The notes under the pieces were generated by a model. That model did not search any database and was not told the origin of the DNA. It saw nothing but the letters and a program-made list of their open reading frames with translations. A program made the translations under genes and the position numbers. Below, in pieces: positions 1,685-7,901 of a DNA stretch of 49,090 nucleotides. Positions within the stretch are counted from its first letter, which is position 1. Each line of letters begins with the position of its first letter. The stretch is from a virus: positions 1 to 49,090 of the IMG/VR virus record IMGVR_UViG_3300028597_000020; one strand, given 5' to 3'.

Positions 1685-1741
1685 GATTTAACTATATTTG
1701 GAACCTATATTACTCACATGAAGAGAAGGAATAAGCCTTCT
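1685..1741 (+). promoter_or_regulatory. Candidate phage early promoter with leader hairpin
   Basis: The segment GATTTAACTA (1685) followed 21 bases later by TATATTAC (1706-1713) is repeated with the same spacing at 4919-4947. TATATTAC is, as I recall, the conserved core of phiKZ early promoters read by the virion RNA polymerase, whose genes lie in this window. Just downstream GAAGG/CCTTC (1725-1740) can form a hairpin around AATAAG, which would sit at the 5' end of the transcript. It would drive the small genes from 1768 onward. Confidence 0.65.
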
Positions 1742-3010: not shown

Positions 3011-3022
3011 CCCCACCCCCTC

Positions 3023-3046
3023 GGTCCACGGGATTTCCCGTGGACC
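3023..3046 (+). terminator. Hairpin terminator
   Basis: GGTCCACGGG pairs perfectly with CCCGTGGACC around a four-base loop and is followed by TTATGCC, the tail seen after many hairpins in this window. Confidence 0.75.
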
Positions 3047-3075
3047 TTATGCCCACAGCTCTAAGGAGAGTTATT

Positions 3076-3825
3076 ATGACCGCACCACTTCCAGGCCACG
3101 TACGTGAACTGCGTGCCGAAGACCAATGCCCTTGCCAGTACGATGAGTGCAAGGCCCACGCCACCCACGAGTATTGCACAGAGGCTGACTCGATGGGTGA
3201 AGAGTGGCTTCCCCTCTGCGAAACCCACATCGAGCAATTCCGCATCGATGCTGCACAGGATTGTATCGCCTCCTGTGATTGGTGTAAAGCAGAGAATGTA
3301 GTAGTGGCTCCTTTCCGCGACTTCGAAGAAGGTACCCACGGTCCCGTATACGACGTTTGTGAAGTATGTCGGGGTAAAGCCATTGACCGCGCTAACGAAG
3401 AGGCTAATCAGTCCTTTGACGGCGATGACGACTTTGCTGAGATGCCGGAGCTGGAGGACGACAGCATTCTCGACATGTGGGACGATGAACAGGCGGAACT
3501 CGAACGCGACCCAGAGTACCTCGCCGACATGCTTATCAAGGCCAGCACCTTGCCACTGAATCCAATTCTACCAGGTGACAACAGTGTCTGCAAGCACTTT
3601 AACCTGATCGGTCCACAACTGGTAGAAGGGCAGCTTGGCTTCTCTGCGCACTGGTCAGACGGTATCCAGGTCGTTATCGCACTGGACCTCGAACTGGGGG
3701 TTCTGTTCTGGCGCGTCCACTTCCCCTACGACTTTTACTTTGTCCACATCGCCCAACGCATGGAGCGTGTCACCCAGCGCATCGTTGCCATGGGTTTCTG
3801 CGTTAAAGAAATCGAAGAACTTTGA
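3076..3825 (+). CDS. Cys-rich putative zinc-binding protein, 249 residues
   Basis: The ATG at 3076 is chosen because AAGGAGAG precedes it; a longer frame has no ribosome site. The first 110 residues hold many paired cysteines and histidines: CPCQYDEC, H-x-x-H-x-x-C, LCETH, CDWC and CEVC. This suggests two small zinc-binding modules. A very acidic stretch (FDGDDDFAEMPELEDD) follows, then a beta-rich C-terminal domain. The pattern is compatible with a regulator or nucleic-acid-binding protein, but no family is assigned. It begins a three-gene unit that continues to 4906. Confidence 0.85.
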   Translation: MTAPLPGHVRELRAEDQCPCQYDECKAHATHEYCTEADSMGEEWLPLCETHIEQFRIDAAQDCIASCDWCKAENVVVAPFRDFEEGTHGPVYDVCEVCRGKAIDRANEEANQSFDGDDDFAEMPELEDDSILDMWDDEQAELERDPEYLADMLIKASTLPLNPILPGDNSVCKHFNLIGPQLVEGQLGFSAHWSDGIQVVIALDLELGVLFWRVHFPYDFYFVHIAQRMERVTQRIVAMGFCVKEIEEL

Positions 3826-4918: not shown

Positions 4919-4975
4919 GATTTAACTAGATTTCAGGCCTATAATACCCACGTGAATAAGGAAGAATAAACTTCT
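4919..4975 (+). promoter_or_regulatory. Candidate phage early promoter with leader hairpin
   Basis: This is the second copy of the element at 1685. GATTTAACTA starts at 4919 and TATAATAC lies at 4940-4947, again 21 bases on. CAC-TGAA and AATAA-C-TTCT are also kept. The leader pairs GAAG (4961-4964) with CTTC (4971-4974) around AATAAA; the stem bases differ from the first copy but still pair. It sits immediately before the run of small genes that starts at 5013. Confidence 0.65.
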
Positions 4976-4993
4976 CTGTTCACTTATAACCAA

Positions 4994-5006
4994 GTCCTAG
5001 GAGGAC
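4994..5006 (+). promoter_or_regulatory. Shine-Dalgarno palindrome (copy 1)
   Basis: GTCCT-AGG-AGGAC places the ribosome site AGGAGG inside a 5-bp hairpin, seven bases before the ATG at 5013. Five similar sites follow downstream. Confidence 0.6.
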
Positions 5007-5012
5007 AAAGAA

Positions 5013-5387
5013 ATGGATGCAAGCATCATGCTGGAAACTGCGAAACTGTTCGCAGCTGTGATTGGGGTCTTCGGGGCTACTTGGGGACTGGCCTATGTGG
5101 CTCGCTGGCTGCAAAGCCGAGGCACCAATTACAATGGCACCTTTGTTGGCACCACCTACGAGTACGGTCAAACGTGGGTCGAGGTGGCTAAGGGTGGCGG
5201 CTATCGCCGCTACAACCTTAAGGTCCAATACAAGATGATGCCTTTCGGTGATAAGTTCTGGCTGATGCAGGAAGTCTGGAATCAAGCTAGGTTGCAGGTG
5301 CTGGAAAAGAATCTGGGTGCGTTGGTTAACATCCAATTCGAAAACTGCAATTACCAGCTTGACATGGATCTGAAAGTCTCGCTATAA
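5013..5387 (+). CDS. Unknown small membrane protein, 124 residues
   Basis: Residues about 9-31 are hydrophobic (LFAAVIGVFGATWGLAYVA) and are followed by basic residues, so the protein should be anchored in the inner membrane with the rest on the cytoplasmic side. The C-terminal 85 residues are beta-rich and polar. It is the first gene after the promoter at 4919. The architecture matches the genes at 1924 and 7022. No family recognised. Confidence 0.8.
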   Translation: MDASIMLETAKLFAAVIGVFGATWGLAYVARWLQSRGTNYNGTFVGTTYEYGQTWVEVAKGGGYRRYNLKVQYKMMPFGDKFWLMQEVWNQARLQVLEKNLGALVNIQFENCNYQLDMDLKVSL

Positions 5388-5396
5388 TCGATACAC

Positions 5397-5424
5397 CCCA
5401 ACCCCCTAATCCTTGGGGGTTGGG
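5397..5424 (+). terminator. Hairpin terminator
   Basis: CCCAACCCCC pairs with GGGGGTTGGG around an eight-base loop and is followed by TATTCT. It lies directly after the 124-residue gene. Confidence 0.7.
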
Positions 5425-5433
5425 TATTCTCAA

Positions 5434-5446
5434 GTCCTAGGAGGAC
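5434..5446 (+). promoter_or_regulatory. Shine-Dalgarno palindrome (copy 2)
   Basis: GTCCT-AGG-AGGAC precedes the ATG at 5450 by three bases. The 17 bases around it are identical to copies 1 and 4. Confidence 0.6.
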
Positions 5447-5449
5447 AAC

Positions 5450-6028
5450 ATGCCTAAAGTTACCGTTCTGAATGCCGCAAAGAAACTCTTCCTCTACGAA
5501 TCCACCATTGCTGAGGAAATGGCAATGGTCCCCGGTGCGGATGAAGAGGCTACTCTGAATGCCTTGGCGGCTGTGTGTGGCTGTGCTATGATGCACGTCA
5601 CGGAGGAGCTGCTCGCAGTGGTTCGCGAGAAGACCCCAACCAGCCCGATCACTGAAGCTGGTAACTACATCATCCTCATTGAGGAGTTTGTAAGTGCCCT
5701 CAATGAAGAAGAGCGCCGCGCTGTAATCGCTCACGAGATTGGTCATCTGGACCACGCTCACCTGGAAGGCCAATCAGGTATCGTTCTGCAACTGCAGTTC
5801 GAACTGGAAGCCGATCAGGCTGCTGTAAAAGAAGTTGGCAAGGCTGCTATGGCTGGCGCTATCGTTAAGCTGATTAATCGCTCACACGACATCCAGCAAG
5901 AGTTCCTCGCCCAGCACGGCGCTAGTCGTGAAATGAATTTCTTCAAAGACGTTCACTTCATCGAGGAAAGTCGTCAGGCCTGCATGAACCACGAGATTGT
6001 TGTGGCTCGTCTGCAAGCTTTGCAGTAA
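5450..6028 (+). CDS. Minimal HEXXH zinc metallopeptidase (M48-like)
   Basis: The 192-residue protein has AHEIGH with H95, E96 and H99, and downstream ELEADQAAV, where E120 fits the third zinc ligand of the Glu-type gluzincins (M48-like EAD motif). There is no membrane segment or signal peptide, so it would act in the cytoplasm, unlike most M48 enzymes. The N-terminal 80 residues are the strand-helix part that precedes HEXXH in small peptidases. The catalytic residues are complete, so it is probably active. Substrate is unknown; processing a host or phage protein early in infection is an inference from its place among the small early genes. Confidence 0.8.
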   Translation: MPKVTVLNAAKKLFLYESTIAEEMAMVPGADEEATLNALAAVCGCAMMHVTEELLAVVREKTPTSPITEAGNYIILIEEFVSALNEEERRAVIAHEIGHLDHAHLEGQSGIVLQLQFELEADQAAVKEVGKAAMAGAIVKLINRSHDIQQEFLAQHGASREMNFFKDVHFIEESRQACMNHEIVVARLQALQ

Positions 6029-6034
6029 GCCCTA

Positions 6035-6054
6035 GGGCCTTCGCAAGAGGGCCC
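6035..6054 (+). terminator. Hairpin after the peptidase gene
   Basis: GGGCCT and AGGGCCC form a stem with one bulge around TCGCAAG, just after the stop codon. Confidence 0.5.
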
Positions 6055-6058
6055 GCTT

Positions 6059-6087
6059 CTATGCCGATTCATAGGGAGTCGGCATAG
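6059..6087 (+). repeat. TATGCC inverted repeat
   Basis: CTATGCCG and CGGCATAG form a perfect 8-bp stem around a 13-base loop. It uses the same TATGCC word that flanks hairpins elsewhere in the window, here as its own stem. Confidence 0.55.
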
Positions 6088-6100
6088 CAGTATTCCCTAC

Positions 6101-6114
6101 GTCCTAAGGAGGAC
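6101..6114 (+). promoter_or_regulatory. Shine-Dalgarno palindrome (copy 3)
   Basis: GTCCT-AAGG-AGGAC precedes the ATG at 6120. The loop is one base longer than in copies 1 and 2 but the stem is the same. Confidence 0.6.
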
Positions 6115-6119
6115 ACGTT

Positions 6120-6413
6120 ATGATCCGCAATTTCCTGAATGCCGCTTTCGCTACTGCGAAAGTGAAGAGTATCGCTCTGCGCCACGACGTGGCCGATGCG
6201 AAGACTTTCGTTGAGACCCGCATGCCTAACGGCGTGCTGCGTCGTCACCAGCTGGACCTCACCGTCCGCAAGTTCCTGAACCCAAGCGAGGGGCTGGAAC
6301 AAGTGGTGGTGTGGAAAGCCCTGCAAGCCATGCTTAAAAGCAATAGCTCGCTGGGTGAGTTGGCTTACGTCTGCTACAACGGCAATGTATTTGCTGTTGA
6401 CAGCGCCCGCTAA
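6120..6413 (+). CDS. Unknown 97-residue protein, possible paralogue of 7022
   Basis: A small soluble protein. Its C-terminal half (VRKFLNPSEGLEQ, then VCYNGNVFAV) resembles the C-terminal half of the gene at 7022 (VKLYKFHNAKALRQ, then VCYQGQIYSF), with the same spacing class, so the two may be paralogues. Here the N-terminal membrane anchor is absent. It is a single-gene unit between two hairpins. Function unknown. Confidence 0.75.
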   Translation: MIRNFLNAAFATAKVKSIALRHDVADAKTFVETRMPNGVLRRHQLDLTVRKFLNPSEGLEQVVVWKALQAMLKSNSSLGELAYVCYNGNVFAVDSAR

Positions 6414-6432
6414 CTAACGCATAATAGCGTCA

Positions 6433-6462
6433 CCCCAGCCAAGCAATCCCGCAAGGCTGGGG
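6433..6462 (+). terminator. Hairpin terminator
   Basis: CCCCAGCC and GGCTGGGG form a perfect 8-bp stem with a 14-base loop, followed by AATCTT. Confidence 0.65.
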
Positions 6463-6471
6463 AATCTTAAA

Positions 6472-6484
6472 GTCCTAGGAGGAC
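6472..6484 (+). promoter_or_regulatory. Shine-Dalgarno palindrome (copy 4)
   Basis: GTCCT-AGG-AGGAC precedes the ATG at 6488 by three bases. Confidence 0.6.
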
Positions 6485-6487
6485 AAC

Positions 6488-6961
6488 ATGAAAGTAACCG
6501 CTAAGTTTGCTGTACTGGGTGACCTGCGTGCCATTCGCAAGGTTGCATTCGAAGGCCCGATGGTGATGAACCTGTTCCCCATCAACCAAATCAACGATGG
6601 CTGGTTCGCTCCTATCGCTGCCATGTACAGCCAGTTCGAATCCTACGCCCTGCGCGTAGAGAAGATGTTCGACGAGCTGATCAAGTTGGGTGGCGCTGAT
6701 CTGGTGGTGGAGATGCTGAACATCGGCCAGGATCTGAGCGGCGATCTGGGCTGGGCCAATGGGCGCTATGCACACGGCCTGCAGCACACCTTCCGCGTAC
6801 ATGACCGTGGGGTCAACCTGTCCATGGCCGCTGTCCACTTCACCGACTGGGCTTTCCAGATGGCGATGGACGAAGGCGAGTTGGGTCAACTGGATTTCGA
6901 GCACAAAGAGTTTGACGAATTCATTCAATCTCTACGTGACAACCTCGCCAAACTGAAGTAA
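6488..6961 (+). CDS. Unknown 157-residue protein
   Basis: A soluble, mildly acidic and largely helical protein with no recognised motif. The SD palindrome gives an unambiguous start. It forms a single-gene unit between hairpins, like its neighbours. Function unknown; an early host-interaction role is only suggested by location. Confidence 0.8.
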   Translation: MKVTAKFAVLGDLRAIRKVAFEGPMVMNLFPINQINDGWFAPIAAMYSQFESYALRVEKMFDELIKLGGADLVVEMLNIGQDLSGDLGWANGRYAHGLQHTFRVHDRGVNLSMAAVHFTDWAFQMAMDEGELGQLDFEHKEFDEFIQSLRDNLAKLK

Positions 6962-6970
6962 ACTGCAACA

Positions 6971-6996
6971 CGCCAGCCACGATAGTGTGGCTGGCG
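6971..6996 (+). terminator. Hairpin terminator
   Basis: CGCCAGCCAC and GTGGCTGGCG form a perfect 10-bp stem with loop GATAGT, followed by ATTC. Confidence 0.7.
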
Positions 6997-7003
6997 ATTC
7001 CCA

Positions 7004-7019
7004 GATCCTAAGGAGGATC
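7004..7019 (+). promoter_or_regulatory. Shine-Dalgarno palindrome (copy 5, compensatory change)
   Basis: GATCCT-AAGG-AGGATC has both arms changed relative to the other copies, yet it forms a 6-bp perfect stem. The paired change argues for selection on the hairpin. Confidence 0.65.
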
Positions 7020-7021
7020 AC

Positions 7022-7327
7022 ATGCTTTATACGTTCTTGGTTGTACTGGCGTTCGTTGTACTGACCGCCATCGTTGCTCGGGTTATTCGCTACCGGGGCT
7101 ACACTGTCCACAAAGTCTCCATCTACCAATGCGCTGCATCGCGCGGTGAGGACTACGTGGAAATCACCGTAGGCGGTTGCCGCCTGCGCAAGCCTCTGGA
7201 AGTAGAGGTGAAGCTGTACAAGTTTCACAATGCCAAGGCCCTGCGTCAATCCATCTGGAACAGCGTGAAGCTGTATGACAAGCGTGTAAGCGCTGTCTGC
7301 TACCAGGGTCAGATCTACTCGTTCTAA
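7022..7327 (+). CDS. Unknown small membrane protein, 101 residues
   Basis: Residues 2-22 (LYTFLVVLAFVVLTAIVARVI) are a membrane segment followed by basic residues. The rest is a small polar domain ending VCYQGQIYSF, which resembles the end of the gene at 6120. Same anchor-plus-domain layout as the genes at 1924 and 5013. Function unknown. Confidence 0.8.
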   Translation: MLYTFLVVLAFVVLTAIVARVIRYRGYTVHKVSIYQCAASRGEDYVEITVGGCRLRKPLEVEVKLYKFHNAKALRQSIWNSVKLYDKRVSAVCYQGQIYSF

Positions 7328-7344
7328 TCAAGGAACGTAAACAG

Positions 7345-7370
7345 GCCTCCCACTGGAAACAGTGGGGGGC
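7345..7370 (+). terminator. Hairpin terminator with TTTATGCC tail
   Basis: GCCTCCCACTG and CAGTGGGGGGC close on a GAAA loop and are followed by TTTATGCC. Confidence 0.75.
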
Positions 7371-7395
7371 TTTATGCCGTTTAAGGAGAAAGAAA

Positions 7396-7665
7396 ATGGC
7401 TGCTGTAAAAGTAATCGTAAACCGTGTCAACCTGCTGGTCCTGCCTGAGTTCCGTCAAGTGCTCAAAGAGTGGGAGGACTTTGGCAAGACTGGTGATCGT
7501 CTCGTGGGTATCGTTGAAACCCGCTGGGACGGTAGCTACAACTTGGAAGAAGTCATGACTGCTTCCCGCTTCTCTACCCCTGGCTTGCAAGACGCAAAAC
7601 GGGACCTCATGGCGACTATCGCCGAATACGACAAGGTGTCTAACAATGAACATGAAACTGCTTGA
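7396..7665 (+). CDS. Unknown 89-residue protein
   Basis: AAGGAG precedes the ATG, here without the palindrome used by its neighbours. The product is small, soluble and helical with no recognised motif. Its last 20 bases overlap the next gene in another frame, so the two are probably coupled. Confidence 0.7.
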   Translation: MAAVKVIVNRVNLLVLPEFRQVLKEWEDFGKTGDRLVGIVETRWDGSYNLEEVMTASRFSTPGLQDAKRDLMATIAEYDKVSNNEHETA

Positions 7666-7828
7666 GATGAATAGCATGATCCTTATGCTCGGTGACCGCC
7701 TGCGTGAGCTGTCGAAACTGATGGCTCAATCGCAAGGCCACCAACATGCGCTCCTCGTTGCTGAACGCGATGAAGTCCTGCGCGAATATGAAACACTCTG
7801 CAAGGCCACTGCCACGCTGATCGCTTAA
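7646..7828 (+). CDS. Unknown 60-residue coiled-coil protein
   Basis: The frame starts MNMKLLEMNSMI; the ATG at 7646 or the one at 7652 may be used. The product is almost entirely helical with a Leu/Met heptad-like pattern (LGDRLRELSKLM). The small size and overlap with the previous gene suggest a partner or a regulator of it, which is inference only. Confidence 0.6.
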   Translation: MNMKLLEMNSMILMLGDRLRELSKLMAQSQGHQHALLVAERDEVLREYETLCKATATLIA

Positions 7829-7885
7829 GCCTAGACTTAAGTGCATTGACGTGACAGTGCTTTTAAGTGTATGCTTGTGACCTGT

Positions 7886-7899
7886 GTCCTAAGGAGGGC
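7886..7899 (+). promoter_or_regulatory. Shine-Dalgarno palindrome (copy 6)
   Basis: GTCCT-AAGG-AGGGC pairs with one G-T wobble and lies two bases before the ATG at 7902. Confidence 0.5.
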
Positions 7900-7901
7900 A
7901 A

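Follow-up and report, generated by a model that had tools for sequence, protein, structure and literature searches.

Evidence for selection on Shine-Dalgarno hairpins of putative early genes in one phiKZ-like jumbo phage lineage

Introduction

Hairpins that occlude the Shine-Dalgarno (SD) sequence usually regulate one gene each. Here we analyze hairpins that enclose the SD sequences of multiple, probably early genes in 49,090 bp of DNA from an uncultured phiKZ-like jumbo phage (IMGVR_UViG_3300028597_000020; the whole stretch is hereafter called the window) and in its relatives.

Several described systems resemble this arrangement. In the RNA thermometers that sequester the SD (cyanobacterial hsp17, fourU, and ROSE), the 5' arm of a short hairpin likewise pairs with the SD, and as in thermometers, many of the elements described here pair UCCU with AGGA; unlike thermometers, however, these elements are predicted to be folded from 20 to 42 C, have a perfect stem and a loop that exposes the GG of the SD, and recur, with different stems, at numerous genes of the same genome. 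The translational operators of phages (T4 gp43, the coat operator of RNA phages) are also hairpins at ribosome sites of phage mRNAs, but the present elements are multi-copy and variable in both stem and loop, with no known cognate protein, and thus lack the conserved sequence or loop expected of an operator. CsrA/RsmA sites likewise have an apical GGA in a hairpin that covers the SD, whereas many of the copies here miss the GGA register and the ANGGA requirement. The early SDs cleaved by RegB of phage T4 resemble our elements in the early-gene GGAG and, judging from the predicted folds, in an unpaired GG followed by a constrained last G, although here the A between them is predicted to form the closing pair; a conserved stem, which is present here, is not described for RegB targets, which are usually protected by structure (PMC3014915), and no RegB or RelE homologue was found in these phages, although the RegB search lacked a working control. 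Finally, ribosome standby sites similarly combine an unstructured leader with a structured SD that is opened by the 30S subunit (PMC9410914), but the present arrangement recurs as a conserved module of putative early operons in a phage lineage, on which such docking may occur. We found no description of such a hairpin set in the open-licence papers searched, and an Rfam search of the window matched no known RNA family.

Results

Seven SD hairpins in the window

Seven genes of the window, all on the + strand, have the SD inside a 5-6 bp hairpin consisting of a 5' arm, an NAGG loop, and an AGNNN 3' arm. The original prediction, made from the sequence of the window alone, listed six such genes with the pattern GTCCT-N3/4-AGGAC; with small corrections, all six sites hold. 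The pattern is exact at four of them, namely, genes 5013 (4994..5006), 5450 (5434..5446), and 6488 (6472..6484), each GTCCT-AGG-AGGAC, and gene 6120 (6101..6114; GTCCT-AAGG-AGGAC). The other two differ: at gene 7022 (7004..7019), both arms are altered together, as had been noticed (GATCCT-AAGG-AGGATC), and the stem of gene 7902, which spans 7885..7900 (TGTCCT-AAGG-AGGGCA), contains one G-U pair, the wobble reported initially. The seventh hairpin, at gene 3076 (3057..3072; AGCTCT-AAGG-AGAGTT, with one G-U), was overlooked; this gene had been assigned a plain SD together with 1924, 2255, and 7396, which indeed have plain SDs without a hairpin, as do genes 1768, 3837, 4619, and 7646. Of the hairpin genes, 5450 encodes an M48-type metallopeptidase; most have no recognizable function.

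All seven hairpins form in the predicted folds of their native intergenic context, where an unpaired stretch lies between each of them and a stronger hairpin upstream. The motif TCCT-N0-6-AGGA occurs 12 times in the window compared to the expected 4.6, a count reached by none of 100 shuffles, and stems of at least 5 bp at SD sites are in excess when upstream arms are exchanged between genes (p=0.001). Gene 16855 has a 4-bp stem that relatives do not retain and that is attributed to chance.

Compensatory changes among relatives

The window encodes homologues of SbcC-like proteins and of the multisubunit RNA polymerase of phages and contains phiKZ-type early promoters; its SbcC-like protein and RNA polymerase subunit are 26-35% identical to those of phiKZ-like jumbo phages. 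No DNA match of the region was found among cultured phages, and no relatives were found with proteins 268 and 5450 as queries. The close relatives are uncultured phages: G001 and G002, in which the RNA polymerase subunit is 80% identical, and G003 (62-64%); the window itself is G000 in multi-phage counts. More distant phiKZ-like contigs (G004, G008, G013, G022, and G023; 34-39%) and the cultured Pseudomonas phage pPa_SNUABM_DT01 (DT01), which infects P. aeruginosa, were also included.

Orthologues were located by a protein-based search blind to the hairpin. Start codons with an AGGAG SD were preferred, a choice that gives no advantage to a complementary arm upstream. In G001-G003, each of the 10 orthologues of the window hairpin genes retains a stem of at least five pairs, with the upstream arm never lost, and each of these stems differs in sequence from that in the window. 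The clearest case is gene 3076, with stems AGCTCT/AGAGTT, GTCCT/AGGAC, GTTCT/AGAAC, and AGTCCT/AGGACT in the four phages. Similarly, the orthologues of gene 7022 have GTCCT/AGGAC in two phages and GATTCT-AGG-AGAATC in another; those of gene 6488, GATCT/AGATC and GTTCT/AGAAC; that of gene 6120 in G003, GTTCT/AGAAC; and that of gene 7902 in G001, GATCCT/AGGATC. An SD arm without the upstream arm was seen only in a much more distant homologue: in phage Eowyn, the homologue of gene 3076, also located behind a TATATTAC promoter, has a plain SD, which implies gain or loss of the element in the larger family.

Pairwise comparison within ten orthologue groups yielded 21 double-sided compensations, four single changes that preserve pairing, and no breaks; the sequence pairs are not independent events, so these counts describe a pattern rather than a probability. 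All 78 variable cells in these groups pair, compared to at most 73 under permutation of the arms. Of the ten groups, six either consist solely of relatives or started from a relative's hairpin gene; in these, the seed hairpin is given, and the test is whether the partner has one too. Neighbouring genes without hairpins retain their SDs but have no stems in relatives. For the hairpin genes of DT01, no close cultured relatives suitable for covariation were found.

Stem length varies with composition as well. Stems of at least 6 bp account for 24 of 48 GC-poor elements compared to 7 of 38 GC-rich ones (p=0.003, an optimistic value given that related sequences are counted), which suggests selection on stability. 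Because the arms change together and longer stems offset low GC, these comparisons support selection for the hairpin fold itself, maintained by compensatory change, in agreement with the original prediction.

Distribution among phages

In G000-G003 combined, 34 stems were observed compared to 6.1 upon permutation of the 5' arms (maximum 15 in 10,000 permutations). Exchange of arms within each genome revealed an excess of stems of at least 5 bp in ten phages, G000-G004, G008, G013, G022, G023, and DT01 (p 0.0005-0.005). The same test detected no excess in phiKZ, FLC9, and LucasX, and a marginal one in Noxifer (p=0.018); the G+C content of FLC9, LucasX, and Noxifer is similar to that of the window, so composition is not the cause. 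IMG/VR contigs found via one hairpin often had further hairpins with stems of different sequence (37 of 208 other sites, part of which belong to the relatives described above), whereas contigs found via a broken-arm control had stems of at least 5 bp at none of 33 sites. A pattern scan of IMG/VR gave at least 120 matches for the matched arm vs 71 for the broken arm; this enrichment is a lower bound, and the co-occurrence of hairpins on contigs is more telling.

Among the contigs, the RNA polymerase homologue of G017 (195 kb) is found in pieces at 138428-144016, with an in-frame TAG and a gap, which points to a split gene, an insertion, or recoding.

Anatomy and predicted stability

Across the lineage, the stems are 5-7 bp long, the apical loop ends in the GG of the SD, and the 5' arms end in CT, being mostly GTCCT or GTTCT. 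In the 94 elements compared, the loop is AAGG in 50 and TAGG in 16, with 3-6 nt variants in the rest, and there are 29 distinct five-pair arm combinations; only the SD core and the complementarity are fixed. This variety of arms and loops points to structure rather than sequence as the common feature.

The SDs of the hairpin genes are the longest in their genomes, matching the anti-SD over 6.7-7.6 nt vs 4.5 nt, in part because AGGAG is required to call a hairpin. Their SD:anti-SD energy is -10.4 kcal/mol vs -5.8, that is, about 4.5 kcal/mol stronger than average. In predictions made with an energy model of isolated RNA, the mean stability of the hairpins is -4.2 kcal/mol, and the stem raises the opening cost of the start region by only about 1.1 kcal/mol. 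Given this small cost and the stronger SD:anti-SD pairing, the elements appear to be strong start sites with a thin stem rather than closed ones. The 8 nt upstream of the hairpin form a G-poor, C-rich leader (5.9% G, 43% C).

The temperature switch suggested in the original prediction finds no support in these folds: predicted SD accessibility is flat from 20 to 42 C, over which range the seven isolated elements are 88-100% paired, so that an RNA thermometer is unlikely. The fourU type in particular does not fit because the 5' arms end in CT and there is no four-U arm.

Association with early promoters

The consensus of the phiKZ early promoter is TATATTAC (PMC7058600). With a position-weight matrix, we identified on the + strand of the window a promoter of the TATATTAC sub-class that heads the first operon (1685..1722) and a TATAATAC variant that heads genes 5013 onward (4919..4956), with 5013 as the first cistron. 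The latter promoter is followed by a predicted 5'-terminal stem-loop of the early transcript (4952..4983, +; 4952-5015 folds at -18.1 kcal/mol, z -3.65), which is the stronger upstream neighbour of the gene 5013 hairpin; between the two lies a leader free of G, TTATAACCAA (4984..4993, +). This layout, a 5'-terminal stem-loop (GTGAA...TTCAC) followed by a C-rich leader and then the SD hairpin, appears to open early transcripts also in G001, G002, and G023.

In G000-G003, the matrix found 53 early-promoter-like sites. The -10 block of eight of these ends in TTAC or ATAC, like TATATTAC. Hairpin genes lie within 4 kb of all eight promoters of this class compared to 4 of the 45 others, the classes being assigned by eye from the sequences. 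The two sub-classes, with -10 blocks ending in TTAC/ATAC and TTATC, also differ in their downstream leaders. In G023, all seven genes directly after early promoters carry hairpins. From their promoters, the hairpin genes are probably early.

The original prediction also considered a device that ties translation to coupling. Because first cistrons after early promoters carry hairpins, coupling or reinitiation is probably not the reason for them, and genes overlapping the preceding stop mostly lack them: the ratio of genes with and without hairpins is 37:20 for starts apart from the preceding stop vs 3:13 for overlapping ones (p=0.0015, resting on automatic gene calls within clusters).

In G000-G003, the element is preceded by a TWATnCCCA block. 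We considered this block as a promoter, in which case the mRNA would begin with the hairpin, and rejected this possibility because the block is also found inside early transcripts and beside stop codons; given this placement and the variable spacing of the C-rich stretch elsewhere, it is better read as a leader.

Other features of the region

Near-perfect sigma-70 promoters are located just upstream of hairpin genes 5450 (5359-5388; TTGACA-18-TATAAT, 12/12) and 6488 (6397-6425; TTGACA-17-CATAAT, 11/12). On the + strand of the window, there are eight sigma-70 sites scoring at least 10/12 vs 1.6 expected; G001 and G002 strongly avoid such promoters, with one per 231-kb contig vs about 22-25 expected. 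The gaps of the gene cluster contain GC-rich hairpins without a T-run (3011-3078, 5386-5452, 6029-6122, 6414-6490, 6962-7024, and 7328-7398), for which possible roles are termination of transcription by the phage polymerase, RNA processing, and stabilisation of 3' ends. Within the cluster, ORF 7396-7665 is the most conserved (80-87% in G001/G002) and has an intergenic SD without a hairpin.

Discussion

We tentatively favour the interpretation that the palindromes are RNA hairpins that enclose early-gene ribosome sites in this phiKZ-like lineage and serve as an intrinsic, stability-tuned ribosome-entry module; all other readings taken together are about equally probable. The sequence features consistent with such a module are the compensated stem, the GG-ending loop, the strong SD, the C-rich leader, and the placement after early promoters; the predicted energy is marginal and apparently tuned. 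Under this interpretation, the hairpin would fold fast, and the 30S subunit would dock on the unstructured leader as a standby site; the exposed AAGG loop would nucleate pairing with the 16S tail, and the weak stem would be opened by an SD:anti-SD duplex of about 10 kcal/mol. Standby followed by unfolding is an established route of 30S initiation on other mRNAs (PMC9410914). The local stem may prevent capture of the SD by distant pairing in mRNA that folds before ribosomes arrive, a protection that would be useful to phages with separated transcription and translation; by kinship to phiKZ, the phages studied here might be of this nucleus-forming type. The stem would also make full pairing of the SD a condition for initiation. 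A further trans-acting factor could participate but would not be required.

Three observations weigh against such a module. First, phiKZ, FLC9, and LucasX do without an excess of hairpins. Second, only a subset of genes carries the hairpin, a regulon-like pattern that could mean a dedicated regulator. Third, in 29 of 34 genes the start region is predicted to open at a lower cost once the 5' arm is shuffled, so that in silico the stem seems to slightly hinder initiation rather than help it.

The next most probable alternative, possible though on balance unlikely, is an operator: a phage or host protein would simultaneously bind the hairpins of 5-15 early genes, whose translation it would switch off (or on), with the switch timed at the early-to-middle transition. 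Such a regulator would account for the regulon-like distribution within one promoter sub-class, the conserved hairpin structure, and the conserved C-rich flank, which could belong to the binding site, as well as for a stem that is too weak for repression on its own. However, loops that vary in size (3-6 nt) and sequence, over 29 arm combinations, are unusual for specific recognition by a protein; no candidate regulator was found, the conserved ORF 7396, which lacks a hairpin, giving only a low-confidence structure model (pLDDT 57). Because loop and stem sequences vary and the energy looks tuned, intrinsic ribosome entry is favoured over recognition by a specific protein.

Less likely still, the hairpins are substrates of an SD-cutting endoribonuclease, similar to RegB or RelE, that destroys early mRNAs. 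In the predicted fold, the GG is in the loop, the A of GGA forms the weak closing A-U pair, and the fourth G of GGAG is paired; this is near the reported preference of RegB, in which GGA is unpaired and the fourth G is constrained (PMC3014915), and the sites reside on probably early mRNAs. Nevertheless, secondary structure generally protects against RegB (PMC3014915), and a cut site needs no tuned stem. RelE/ParE (PF05016) had no match in the phages searched, where controls matched; RegB (PF10715) had none in 10 records, where the control genomes did not match either.

It is quite improbable that the palindrome acts at the DNA level, as the operator of a dimeric DNA-binding protein or part of a promoter, and overlaps the SD by accident. 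The DNA is near-palindromic, and the TWATnCCCA block precedes it, but the arms vary freely yet stay complementary, the loops vary, and among single non-Watson-Crick pairs, G-U is commoner than A-C (14 vs 6); furthermore, elements also occur inside early transcripts, downstream of the promoter and its 5' stem-loop. We give marginally less credence to host CsrA/RsmA sites exploited for host regulation: in nearly every element, the hairpin over the SD has GGA at its apex, but the A of this GGA lies outside the loop, in the closing pair, and about one-third of the loops (TAGG, CAGG, GAGG, AGG) lack the first A of the ANGGA that this family requires. Chance pairing of a pyrimidine-rich stretch with the purine-rich SD, which explains the two inner pairs (CT/AG) given the SD itself and the site selection, is rejected because composition-preserving arm exchange does not reproduce the stems, FLC9 and LucasX lack an excess at matched G+C, and the broken-arm control contigs yielded no stems.

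More speculatively, and with a fairly low probability in our judgement, this phiKZ-like lineage, of the nucleus-forming type, might have adopted a shape-defined entry signal, namely, a stability-tuned SD hairpin plus a C-rich standby leader under selection for its fold and not its sequence; the signal would set early phage mRNAs apart from other mRNAs at the ribosome and might be read by phage-modified ribosomes. In the ten phages, tens of genes share one fold that is free in sequence and tied to early promoters, a natural series of compensated variants that bears on how ribosomes handle structured start sites. The cultured P. aeruginosa phage DT01 has these hairpins, which makes them experimentally accessible. 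The hairpins mark likely early operons from sequence alone and suggest a translational layer of early-gene control in phiKZ-like phages.

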